64,000 nucleotides of DNA from Halolamina pelagica (GTDB lineage Archaea > Halobacteriota > Halobacteria > Halobacteriales > Haloferacaceae): positions 1 to 64,000 of the forward strand of contig NZ_FOXI01000007.1 in the NCBI RefSeq assembly GCF_900115675.1, read 5' to 3'. The position numbers and the translations under genes are program-made. Position 1 is the first letter of the stretch, and each line of letters begins with the position of its first letter. Under the pieces are notes generated by a model. It made no database searches. It had not been told where the DNA came from and worked only from the letters and a program-made list of their open reading frames with translations. Below are positions 1-36,599 of this stretch, in pieces.

Positions 1-121
1 TAACGGCGGTGTGGCCCCGCCATCGGCCTGTCATGCCGACAGGCCGTAAACCAGTAAATATCCCAACCCAGCGGTGCGGTGCCGTGGGAAGCCTCTCCGT
101 TTACGGCGAGGAGGAGGTCAC
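1..121 (+). mobile_element. Solo right end of an IS200/IS605 (TnpB) element, cut by window edge
   Basis: This stretch matches 23725-23845 base for base except position 96 (T here, G there). It holds a perfect 8-bp stem (24-31 with 39-46), a second hairpin around 68-90, and a terminal hairpin at about 92-111 followed by the end sequence GGAGGTCA. In this IS family the 3' end encodes the omega RNA that guides TnpB. The T at 96 breaks one pair of the terminal stem, so this copy looks decayed. No tnpB is visible, but the window starts here, so the body may lie to the left. Confidence 0.75.
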
Positions 122-13317: not shown

Positions 13318-14710
13318 GACGGCGGTCTTTTTCACGGATCGACGACGACCTGTCGGCATGTCGCCCTCCACCGACGCCAGCGGCACCCCGGTCAGTCGCC
13401 GTGCTGCGCTCGCCACCGGCGTCGCCGCGGCCGCCGCGCTCGCCGGCTGTGCCGGCGTCGACGACATCCGCGACGCGATCAATCCCCGGACGTACGACAG
13501 CGACGCCGAACTCGGCGACCCGCCGGAGCCGTGGCCCACGCCGGGTCACGACGCGCTCCGGACCGGCTCCCGCGACACCGAGACGACGGTGTCGGAGGAC
13601 CCCGCCATCGAGCGTGTCGGCCCCGGCGGCGGCGACTTCTACGAGCGGGCGCCGATGGTCGATAGCCAGGCCGTCTACGCGCCGGTCTGGAAACAGGCCG
13701 AGCCGGAGTACGTCCGAGCGTTCGTCGCGACGGGCCGCGACGGCGAGGCTCGCTGGCGCCACGACTGGTCAGAGAGCAGCGGCGCCGCCGCGCCGACGCT
13801 CCACGGCGGGACGGCGTTCCTGACCCGGGCTGGGGGGGACGATGGCCGTCGATCGCCGGACCGGCGAGATCCGGTGGACGTCCGCCGCCGGAACCGTCCC
13901 GAGCACGCCGACGGCCGTCGGCGACCGCCTCTACCTCGGCGGGAAATCGCTGCTGGCCCTCGACGGGGCGACCGGCGAACGGCTGTGGACTGCTGACGCG
14001 GTCCCGGCCCACGCCGGCGAACTCGCGGCGACCGAAGACACCGTCGTCGCCGCCAGCGACGGCACGCTGTTCGCGATCGACGCCGCCGACGGCTCGGTTC
14101 GCTGGCAGGCCGACCTCGATCAAGGCTCCTACGTCAGCCCGGTCGTCGGCGAGGACGTGGTCGCGCTGATGGGCAGCGACGGGCTGCTGCAGGTCCGCGC
14201 GCGTGCCGACGGGGGCGAACGCTGGACCGTCCAGTTCGATCGCGCCGCACAGGCCCCGCCCGCGATCGCCGACGACGTCGTCTACGCCGTCGACGAGGAC
14301 CCCTACGCCTGCCGGGCCTACGACGCCGGTAGTGGCGAGGCGCTGTGGGACACGGATCTCGGCGTCGGGAGCGAGGACCGGCCCGCCGTGGATCCGGAGA
14401 CGGTGTACGTCGCGAACCAGGACACGCTCGACTGTCTCGACCGGGCGACCGGCGAGATCCGACGGCGGATCCCGCTGGACCTCGACACGTTCTCCCAGCA
14501 CGGCGTCGCGCTGGCCGACGACGCCGTGTTCCTGGTTGCCCAGCGCGACGGGGAGAGCGGCGTCTGTCTTGATTCAGCGAGAGAATCCCGCCGTTCACGG
14601 CGGGCGTGAATCGCGGAAGCTCGGTGCGACAGTCCACGTAGTTCTGCCGGCCGAATACCCAACGGCACAAGGATTATTGAGATTGGGTATCTTATATTTG
14701 GTGGGGCCAA

Positions 14711-15103
14711 ATGGAGTATCACCTGCAATCCGGGTCGCACACGGTCTACGCGCTCCAATACCACTTCGTGACCGTCACGAAGTACCGCGCCGACATCCTC
14801 ACTGATGAGCGGCTGGAGCGCGTGGCTGAAGTCGCTCACGAGATTGCAGAAGACTTCGAGGCCGACATCAAGAACGTGGACGGCGGCACCGACCACGTTC
14901 ACATCCTGTTCACGACCAGACCCACCACCGACCTCACCAAGTTCATCAACTCGCTCAAGGGCGTCACATCCCGCCGGATTCGGCAGGAGTACCCTGAGGT
15001 GAAACAGACGCTCGAAGATGCGTTCTGGCAACCGGGATATTTCCTCGCCACGACCGGTCAAGTGAGCATCGACGTGCTGATGGACTACGTGGAAAACCAG
15101 TAG
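14711..15103 (+). CDS. tnpA: IS200-type TnpA transposase (Y1 HUH)
   Basis: The 130-aa enzyme cuts and rejoins single-stranded DNA at the element ends. The HUH metal site is DHVHILF (His62, His64) and the nucleophilic tyrosine is most likely Tyr126 in MDYVENQ, in the usual C-terminal helix. Length and motif spacing match the family, so it should be active. One base separates it from tnpB. It is the only tnpA in the window and could act on the related ends of the tnpA-less copies. Confidence 0.96.
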   Translation: MEYHLQSGSHTVYALQYHFVTVTKYRADILTDERLERVAEVAHEIAEDFEADIKNVDGGTDHVHILFTTRPTTDLTKFINSLKGVTSRRIRQEYPEVKQTLEDAFWQPGYFLATTGQVSIDVLMDYVENQ

Positions 15104-15104
15104 C

Positions 15105-16361
15105 ATGACCGCGACAACCACGAAAACGCTGGAGGCCACGCTCGCCCCACCGACTACCCACAAAGAGCGCAAACTGTGCGACCTGCTCGACACTTACCGG
15201 GCAGGACTCCACGAGGCGTTCGAGGATGGGTGTAACACGATGACCGCCACCAGCGACGTGGTGACGCCCTACGACCTGCCGTACCAGGCGAAGGCGGCCC
15301 TGTGCAACTACGTCCCGCAACTGCACGGCACCTACGACGCCGAAGAGTTAGACGACGACCACCCGGTTCGGCTCACCAACCAAGCCGCCGAGTTCGACTA
15401 CTCGCCGGACCGCGACTACGAGTTTACGTGGTGGGTGCCACAGCCCGGTCGCGGGACGAACTTCTGGATACCACTCCGTATCAATCCCGCTCAAGAAGAA
15501 CTGTGGCACGACCTCGTGGACGGTGAGGCGTCGGCAGGCCAACTCCCCCTGCAACGCCACCGCACGTCGTGGACGCTTCACGTCACCGTCGAGTTTCCGG
15601 TCGAAGAACCGGACTACGAACCGACAGACGGCGATGTAACACCAGTCGGCTTCGACATTGGCGAAGCACACCTGCTCGCGGGCTGTGCCTGCGAGCAGGA
15701 CACTCCGACCGATCCACTTCTCATCACCGGTGGCCGCGCTCGGCACCTCCGCAAAGAGATGTACACGACGCTCAAACGACTTCAAGAGCGTGACGCCTCC
15801 CAGTGGCGGATTGACGAACGGTTCGACCACTACCAGAACGCACTCACGGACATCATCGAGAAGGCGTCTCGGCAGGCCGTCGAGTACGCCTGCCGGTTCG
15901 AGAAGCCTGTGGTCGTGCTGGAAGACCTCTCGTACATCCGCGAAGACCTCGATTACGGCGAGTGGATGAACCGACGCCTCCACGCATGGGCGTTCGCTCG
16001 CCTCCAACAACGTATCGAAGACAAAGCACGAGAGGCCGGGCTTCCGGTCGAATACATCCGCCCAGAGTATACGAGCCAGACGTGCCACGAGTGCGGCCAC
16101 GTCGGGTACCGGAACGGCGACGAGTTCCGGTGTACGAACGACGAGTGTTGGGTGTCGGAGTATCACGCAGACATCAACGCGGCGGTCAACATTGCTGACC
16201 GTCACGACCCGTGGGGTGAGAGCCTGCCGCTGAAACCGGCGGGCGATGACATTCCACGGGATGGGAGCGCCTGTGACAGCGCCGCGACCCCCACCGAGCA
16301 GAGCCAACCACGGCAGATGACGCTCGGCGAAGTCAGGTCGGAACCCTCTGCCGGTAGTTAG
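15105..16361 (+). CDS. tnpB: TnpB RNA-guided endonuclease (intact element)
   Basis: The 418-aa protein has all RuvC catalytic residues: Asp in GFDIGEAHLL, Glu in VVLEDLSYIRE and Asp in HADINAAVNIA. The zinc ribbon reads CHECGHVG ... CTNDEC. The conserved block RHLRKEM is shared with the copy at 8698-9933. It should act with an RNA from the right end to cut DNA carrying the TTGAT-type TAM. A short tail rich in Pro, Thr and Gln follows the catalytic part. Confidence 0.95.
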   Translation: MTATTTKTLEATLAPPTTHKERKLCDLLDTYRAGLHEAFEDGCNTMTATSDVVTPYDLPYQAKAALCNYVPQLHGTYDAEELDDDHPVRLTNQAAEFDYSPDRDYEFTWWVPQPGRGTNFWIPLRINPAQEELWHDLVDGEASAGQLPLQRHRTSWTLHVTVEFPVEEPDYEPTDGDVTPVGFDIGEAHLLAGCACEQDTPTDPLLITGGRARHLRKEMYTTLKRLQERDASQWRIDERFDHYQNALTDIIEKASRQAVEYACRFEKPVVVLEDLSYIREDLDYGEWMNRRLHAWAFARLQQRIEDKAREAGLPVEYIRPEYTSQTCHECGHVGYRNGDEFRCTNDECWVSEYHADINAAVNIADRHDPWGESLPLKPAGDDIPRDGSACDSAATPTEQSQPRQMTLGEVRSEPSAGS

Positions 16362-16412
16362 CCGGTATTCCCATGCAGGGAAGCCGCGCCGTTCACGGCG
16401 CGGAGGATGTCA
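16362..16412 (+). ncRNA. Putative omega-RNA 3' end of the intact element
   Basis: Directly after the tnpB stop come two hairpins, TTCCCATGCAGGGAA and CCGCGCCG-TTCA-CGGCGCGG, then GGATGTCA. This is the right-end structure that in TnpB systems is transcribed with the tnpB 3' end as guide RNA. The flank CCGAGTGGGCTGAGAC would be its current guide segment. Confidence 0.55.
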
Positions 16413-16436
16413 CCGAGTGGGCTGAGACGGCACTGA

Positions 16437-23451: not shown

Positions 23452-23479
23452 GGGGCCGGTCCGGCACCGGCTATCTTTC

Positions 23480-23845
23480 TTCGAGGAGAGAATCCCGCCG
23501 GTCACGGCGGGTGTGAATCTGACAACGCCTCCACAACCCACATTCACCATCAATACGGATATTTAACTGGGAACGTATCGTAGCATGACGTACACCGAGG
23601 CGGTCACGCCGCCCACTCAAATGTACAATATCGGGACTCCGAGGCCCAGAACGTTCGAGACACACTCTCGAACCGCTGTGGTGTCTCGGCTCAGATAACT
23701 CCGAGTCCCCTGCCGGGATAGGAGTAACGGCGGTGTGGCCCCGCCATCGGCCTGTCATGCCGACAGGCCGTAAACCAGTAAATATCCCAACCCAGCGGTG
23801 CGGTGCCGTGGGAAGCCTCGCCGTTTACGGCGAGGAGGAGGTCAC
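23480..23845 (+). mobile_element. Internally deleted IS200/IS605 element keeping both ends
   Basis: The left end (GAGGAGAGAATCCC with hairpin CCCGCC-ggtcac-GGCGGG, 23494-23511) resembles the left end at 14574. The right end (23725-23845) matches 1-121 with one difference and keeps all three hairpins intact. Only about 0.37 kb remains. Before the right end, one frame reads SEAQNVRDTLSNRCGVSAQI and stops at 23720, which looks like a TnpB C-terminal tail. A start codon at 23585 opens a 37-aa frame that crosses the deletion. No transposase is left, so it could move only with TnpA supplied in trans. Confidence 0.8.
23725..23845 (+). ncRNA. Orphan omega-RNA-like right end
   Basis: The segment keeps an 8-bp stem (CGGCCTGT/ACAGGCCG), a middle CCCAGCGG...CCGTGGG hairpin, a perfect terminal stem CCTCGCCG-TTTA-CGGCGAGG and the end GGAGGTCA. 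All pairs are intact, unlike the copy at 1-121. Related TnpB proteins in the window have different right ends, so which TnpB, if any, would use it is unknown. Confidence 0.5.
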
Positions 23846-23891
23846 TTCCGGGGGATCGCCCCGGCTCGCACTACCGGAGCCTCGGGACCGA

Positions 23892-36488: not shown

Positions 36489-36535
36489 CCCCTCCCTGGG
36501 AGGGCGTGCAGGATTAAGAGGGTGGCTATCTTGAT

Positions 36536-36576
36536 TCAGCGAGAGAATCCCGCCGTTCACGGCGCGGAGGATGTCA
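36536..36576 (+). mobile_element. 41-bp IS200/IS605 scar: left and right ends fused
   Basis: Preceded by TTGAT (36531-36535), the 41 bases equal 14574-14602 joined to 16401-16412 of the intact element, without a mismatch. The join falls in CGCCGTTCACGGCG, a 14-bp sequence present in both end hairpins of that element (14589-14602 and 16387-16400). So the element was lost by a deletion between its two end repeats, not by clean TnpA excision. Confidence 0.9.
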
Positions 36577-36599
36577 CGCCGCACCGCTTCCGCGGGCGC

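Follow-up and report, generated by a model that had tools for sequence, protein, structure and literature searches.

A segment at 23475–23845 of the Halolamina pelagica DNA analysed here (64,000 nucleotides, hereafter the window, G000:C16:1–64000, whose position 1 is the end of contig C16) is, judged by sequence comparison, one copy of a widespread 371-base protein-free mobile element of salt-loving archaea, a palindrome-associated transposable element (PATE). In our view it is probably an IS200/IS605-type element without autonomy, in which a non-coding RNA takes the place of genes; TnpA, and perhaps TnpB, would be supplied in trans. Sequence data make mobilization by TnpA in trans very likely, and a TnpB might plausibly use the PATE RNA in the same way. 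The parts of the element mapped below, the right part at 1–121 and the IS605-type element at 14568–16413 lie on the forward strand.

The borders were fixed by six empty sites in relatives, which place the 371-bp element at 23475–23845, directly 3′ of CTAT, and which establish that insertion occurs without target duplication. An earlier sequence-only reading had put the left border at 23480 and the length at about 366 bp, and had started the flank, or guide, after GGTCA; the empty sites move the left border outward by five bases and place the start of the flank, and of the putative guide, after GGTCAC. At five of the six sites the relatives read CTAT joined directly to the right flank: this holds for the window copy (empty in G086), two copies of genome G099 (empty in G135/G137 and in G157), one divided between contigs C30 and C24 of the own genome, G000 (empty in G002), and one divided between contig C33 and window positions 1–121 (empty in G002 and G030). 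The flanks of this last copy adjoin in G002 as CACCTAT followed by ACC, and the corresponding site in G086 reads GTAT instead, with other DNA upstream. The sixth empty site, which belongs to a G099 copy apparently within a tnpB gene, reads CCGT in the relative G089. For this copy, L073 (G099:C1:1106512–1106886), a TNB domain follows 515 bp downstream on the same strand.

The termini (CTTTC at the left, GGTCAC at the right) form no terminal inverted repeats; the palindromes are near-terminal. Among the own-genome domain matches, no Y1_Tnp (TnpA) or TNB (TnpB) domain falls inside the element, in agreement with the earlier statement that it holds no transposase. The longest open stretch in the three forward frames covers about 85 codons and runs out at the right end, and the reverse strand has a mechanical 95-aa open reading frame; with 371 bp and such short frames, the element is too small for a transposase gene. 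It thus has near-terminal palindromes, a short target, no target duplication, a length insufficient for a transposase and multiple copies, as expected of a PATE, and it encodes neither TnpA nor TnpB, at least one of which defines an autonomous IS200/IS605 element.

Further copies, for which the sequence-only reading had suggested a search, were found in the own genome and in relatives. Of 17 matches in the own genome, two are complete, several are truncated at contig ends and some represent the shared ends of other elements; six distinct right flanks next to the PATE right end indicate at least six insertions. The right end at 1–121, described earlier as an orphan sister end that had lost one base pair, does carry that mismatch in its right hairpin (CTCTCCG opposite CGGCGAG). 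It is no orphan: the contig end truncates a second copy here, whose right part this is and whose left part lies on C33, as own-genome matches and the adjoining flanks in G002 indicate. Assembly breaks fall within PATE copies on contigs C5, C16, C24, C30, C33 and C36, the start of the window included. Matches, many of them to the ends only, occur in 86 of 119 family genomes. In G099 there are five copies, each at a site of its own; four are identical and the fifth differs by one base, which we take as a sign of recent transposition. Matches were also present in 82 plasmid records, nine of which have a query coverage of 80% or more (these include plasmids of Natrononativus, Salinirubellus, Halarchaeum and Natronorubrum); no genes are listed under the nine best plasmid places in the gene table, which is incomplete. 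E. coli genomes gave no matches. To call the element 'gutted' is therefore misleading, as it belongs to a widespread PATE lineage with an extra RNA domain of its own and is no recently decayed single copy.

Both end hairpins of the window copy are perfect, as had been noted: a 7-bp stem at the left (CCCGCCG/CGGCGGG, 23494–23511) and an 8-bp stem at the right (CCTCGCCG/CGGCGAGG, 23816–23835). Decay of these hairpins, named earlier as evidence against the sequence-only reading, was looked for in the aligned copies and did not exceed single mismatches. In IS608, guides pair with the cleavage sites of TnpA. By analogy, AGAA at the foot of the left hairpin (23489–23492) and GAAG before the right hairpin (23812–23815) are the putative guides for cleavage at CTAT (23471–23474, also the would-be TAM) and at TCAC (23842–23845), respectively. 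Thirty CTAT-type copies came from a pattern search of the collected loci that required GAAT ahead of the left hairpin and a terminal TCAC or TCAA: CTAT stands to the left of 24, the right site is TCAC in 29, GGGAAGC precedes the right hairpin in 28, and the left-guide region reads GAGAAT in 27 and GCGAAT in 3, the GAAT being required by the pattern itself. Another subfamily, picked out by AAAG ahead of the left hairpin, comprises 13 copies: the left site is TTAC in 12 and TCAC in one, the right site is TCAA in all 13, and GGGAATC precedes the right hairpin in 12. The paired changes (TCAC/GAAG versus TCAA/GAAT, and CTAT/AGAA versus TTAC/AAAG) agree with guide pairing of the IS608 TnpA kind. Identity between the two subfamilies is uneven, a point against the reading that we favour, ranging from 0.32 to 0.88 per 20-base window with the lowest value at q101–120, and the alignment reveals a common interior architecture.

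Four Y1_Tnp genes are present in the own genome. One of them belongs to an element on contig C34; CTAT stands to the left of this element, its right hairpin is the same as in the window copy, and its left hairpin differs in sequence from that of the PATE. This CTAT/TCAC element is the best candidate source of TnpA. An IS605-type element with related ends in the window (14568–16413; Pfam Y1_Tnp and Cas12f1-like_TNB) is another possible source; the C34 element fits better. The copies, the near-identity in G099, the six empty sites and the TnpA element with matching ends together support the proposal of the sequence-only reading that the element is non-autonomous and could be moved by TnpA in trans.

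In its 3′ part, 23693–23845, the element has a domain of the omega-RNA (sotRNA) type. Rfam and an alignment with the 3′ ends of four tnpB genes identify it as a homologue of the final tnpB codons and 3′ end; excerpts of PMC12558985 treat the sotRNAs of haloarchaea as omega-RNAs. The Rfam family sot0042 (RF02656) matches 23693–23836 over the whole model (positions 1–174) with 67 bits and an E value of 3.6e-17, below its gathering score of 88, and across the window no Rfam family reaches its gathering threshold; the 3′ ends of four own-genome tnpB genes or remnants score 80.6 to 148.4 bits. The alignment identifies the domain as the tnpB C-terminal region plus the right end with a broken reading frame, and the omega-RNA stems are kept although the frame is broken. 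In the PATE a shorter hairpin stands where the tnpB-linked omega-RNA has one long stem, so that TnpB binding may be lost. The fold of 23585–23865 has a z-score of −5.15, and none of 200 shuffles folded as well. The earlier suggestion of a retained RNA gains support from this homology and from the covariation described below. Weak Rfam HgcC matches were seen at window 23747–23857 and at L187:1531–1661 (32 and 34.9 bits; gathering score 50); we speculate that in other archaea HgcC could be related to omega-RNAs.

No TNB domain adjoins the PATE omega-RNA; the nearest on its contig is about 7,500 bp away. Among 77 RF02656 matches in six genomes, 24 have a TNB domain 8–26 bp upstream (in one case 223 bp) and 53 have none, on the understanding that a tnpB with a decayed TNB domain would be missed in all six. 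The TNB lists are complete for G000 (17 of 17) and G099 (15 of 15). In G000, four matches lie beside tnpB (two of these frames being only 141 and 162 aa long) and four do not, those on C24 and C30 being the two halves of one copy; G099 has 3 beside tnpB and 11 without. For these two genomes together, 15 of 22 sot0042-type matches (14 insertions) thus lack an adjoining tnpB. The assignment 'without tnpB' is provisional in G083, G104, G055 and G067, for which 37 of 44, 23 of 27, 12 of 24 and 2 of 3 TNB rows, respectively, were compared, and G113 (36 RF02656 matches) was left out of this comparison.

Upstream of the omega-RNA lies a second RNA domain. In the alignment of copies, a TATA-like box, GGATATTTAA (23557–23566), which may act as a promoter, precedes the conserved GCATGACG; a hairpin GGCGG-TCACG-CCGCC (23599–23613; alignment A1) lies near the start of the putative RNA. 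The 5′ domain itself (23627–23690) consists of a hairpin at 23653–23673 with the loop CACAC (23661–23665) and an outer stem CCGAG/CTCGG; a search of five tnpB 3′ ends did not find it. We compared 31 non-redundant elements (the window copy and 30 others), leaving out long-insert copies, shorter copies and near-duplicates. The hairpin is present in nearly all of them, the exceptions being L200 and L053, and its stems change between clades yet still pair (TTCGAGA/TCTCGAA, CGGAAGA/TCTTCCG, CAGAAAG/CTTTCTG and others), with the loop mostly CACCC. Arms picked by pairing would give 100% by construction, and motif-placed loops were used instead: the motif alone located the loop in 27 of the 31 sequences (it was absent in four and fell in the wrong place in L057 and L059), and all eight pairs formed in 22 of the 27. 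When the arms of 13 distinct pairs were shuffled, none of 20,000 shuffles matched the observed pairing, the relatedness of the sequences being uncontrolled.

A covariance model built from 13 CTAT-type sequences recovered all 31 elements except L200. The resulting 38-match alignment, which takes in five tnpB ends and two simple PATEs (seven omega-RNA rows that lack the 5′ domain) and one weak match (19.9 bits), has double changes in 14 of 20 pairs, and in 7 of 8 for the 5′ hairpin alone, counts that related sequences inflate. Covariation over the 5′ domain and the first omega-RNA stems was 0.398, compared with 0.150 ± 0.010 in shuffles (0 of 500 as high) and at most 0.068 in slid versions, in an alignment fitted to the model; the 13 model sequences alone show double changes in two pairs only. 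With the best candidates per genome scored, the model reached at least 45 bits, a cut-off of our own choosing, in at least 39 of 194 class genomes from seven families; the best tnpB 3′ end tested scored 41.5 bits.

Two further pairings within the element were considered. A candidate pseudoknot between the 5′-domain loop and 23677–23683 is suggestive only: 27 of 29 sequences have a best loop-to-tail complement of 4 or 5 bp and two have one of 3 bp; when tried against 28 other tails, the loop AATCC (L057, L102) forms 5 bp with two and AACCC (L055) with none, 24 of 28 other loops pair equally well with the tail of L057, and the helix in alignment A2 varies by loss only (3 of 13). GGGACTC (23633–23639) is complementary to GAGTCCC (23703–23709) inside the omega-RNA domain, and the other PATE subfamily has GGGATTC/GAATCCC at this place. 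We do not regard this as a proven long-range stem, as it is essentially one clade-level double change and permutation of the nine distinct arm pairs gave a result no better than random (0.698 versus 0.707; 5,894 of 10,000 at least as high).

The would-be guide segment is the right flank at 23846–23865. Under the homing logic proposed for TnpB, a guide is directed at the empty site of the element that supplies it. When up to three mismatches were allowed, a pattern search found the flank in two places of the own genome, its own position and C16:94411–94430, the latter without CTAT. The TAM-adjacent matches elsewhere in the genome that the sequence-only reading had proposed to look for were thus not found: no further target within three mismatches is CTAT-flanked, so the guide would address only its own empty site, provided that TnpB accepts the RNA. 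A candidate nuclease is the TnpB on contig C9 (L218/L031), an intact 416-aa frame between CTAT and TCAC ends; the earlier suggestion that orphan right-end RNAs could guide the TnpB of another copy is plausible. Its RuvC-I and RuvC-III Asp residues are present; the 13 aligned TnpBs linked to sot0042-type RNAs (C9 and 12 others) have no Glu at the usual RuvC-II position and carry one three residues before the TSK motif. Rearranged RuvC active sites of this kind exist. A TCAC-type tnpB was found in each of G000, G099 and G055, the three TCAC-PATE genomes in which tnpB right ends were read.

Together, these observations allow us to propose how the element could work. TnpA from another element, best from C34 with its CTAT/TCAC ends, would recognize both ends and move the PATE as single-stranded DNA. 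A transcript from the conserved TATA-like region, starting near 23585, would cover both RNA domains and run past the right end, giving a guide RNA with the flank as its guide. A matching intact TnpB, such as that of C9, would take up this RNA in trans and cut the empty donor site after excision, and the cut could then restore the lost PATE copy from the sister chromosome. More tentatively, and with a probability that we put short of even, PATEs may be guide-RNA-only selfish elements, in which a two-domain RNA hijacks foreign TnpA and TnpB, the 5′ domain serves as a switch or loading signal (because its GGGAYTC arm would be in competition for the first omega-RNA hairpin) and tnpB-less guides outnumber tnpB-linked ones in many haloarchaea.

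Elements of the MITE type require just their ends, and the PATE could in principle be such a passive element, with an interior of inert tnpB debris. Core deletions down to about 50 bp, in Haloquadratum (as described in parts of PMC3119063) and at window 36530–36577, would fit this account. We nonetheless regard it as unlikely, as the 5′ domain covaries strongly and did not turn up in the five tnpB 3′ ends tested, the omega-RNA stems persist despite the broken frame, and the CTAT and TTAC subfamilies have their interior architecture in common.

A somewhat less unlikely reading, to which we still give a low probability, is that of a regulatory or decoy RNA: in place of serving as an active guide, the orphan RNA would inhibit or redirect TnpB by binding to it or to the tnpB mRNA, perhaps to the benefit of the host. 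The 5′ arm GGGACTC can pair with GAGTCCC in the first omega-RNA hairpin and would then block it (the minimum-energy fold being one prediction), and inverse expression profiles of Halobacterium omega-RNAs and tnpB are reported in the excerpts of PMC12558985; the fresh multi-site copies in G099, however, look selfish rather than domesticated. That the element is a single decayed and immobile remnant of a tnpB element is highly improbable: the broken tnpB C-terminal frame could be read in this way, but the multi-copy state, the empty sites and the near-identical copies elsewhere contradict it.

The reading that we favour, a non-autonomous element with an RNA for genes, extends what has been described. 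PATEs were described in Haloquadratum by Dyall-Smith et al. 2011 (PMC3119063), and, as far as excerpts of that paper go, the present element resembles them in its IS605-type near-terminal palindromes, lack of terminal inverted repeats and of target duplication, short 5′ target oligonucleotide, length insufficient for a transposase and, as in some families, homogeneity. It differs, by comparison with the palindromes, borders and core deletions described there, in its conserved covarying interior RNA. From tnpB-linked sot0042 RNAs, with which it has a whole-model match, the 3′ end and the would-be guide start in common, it differs in the lack of an adjoining tnpB, the short hairpin in place of one long stem, the extra 5′ domain and a score below gathering. 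A PATE-like element of Halanaerobium hydrogeniformans, comprising a left hairpin, the last 58 nt of tnpB and the whole right end, likewise keeps the omega-RNA region; it is a single sequence in a bacterial genome, and the excerpts of PMC7290912 do not describe an extra RNA domain. The PATE of virus HRTV-DL1 (OP630574) is strongly transcribed, almost exclusively in reverse, according to parts of PMC10544981; its ends are related to those of the window element and its interior is dissimilar, which rules out its expression as direct support for the window element. PATEs on H. lacusprofundi pHLAC01 and on pR1SE2 also have the CTAT-type left end, and match sot0042 with 98.9 and 84.2 bits; they derive from a separate tnpB deletion, without the 5′ hairpin domain. 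At L186:501–817 and L185:501–795 (pHLAC01 and pR1SE2) the region upstream of tnpB is fused directly to the omega-RNA, a similar outcome.

Smaller elements were also encountered. Window 36530–36577 holds a 48-bp 'terminal-only' element after CTAT, in which the left end is joined through a shared hairpin to the right end (GGATGTCAC); it resembles the 52-bp core-deleted Haloquadratum forms in the excerpts of PMC3119063. Stretches of about 50 bp with double perfect hairpins, differing in their stems and similar in layout, occur within PATE hairpin loops (L044:1777–1825; L193:673–721 and 808–848; L194:676–724; L043:205–245 and 568–615; L093:353–398) and elsewhere (L134:632–677; L143:2963–3012; L155:2365–2407), a pattern seen without a chance control; possibly they are a small mobile repeat like SMR-A.

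A literature search, blunted in part by unspecific matches, found nothing on tnpB-less guide-RNA elements beyond the papers cited here, and no MITE-type terms were found in PMC9956272. Three findings go beyond the portions of the cited papers considered: a 5′ domain that covaries, the spread across the class and how many omega-RNAs lack a tnpB. If our interpretation is true, the guide RNA of a TnpB/Cas12 ancestor can live and spread as a mobile element of its own, apart from the nuclease gene. The element would then offer a natural setting in which the action of guide RNAs in trans can be tested, and its covarying 5′ domain provides a concrete RNA structure to probe.
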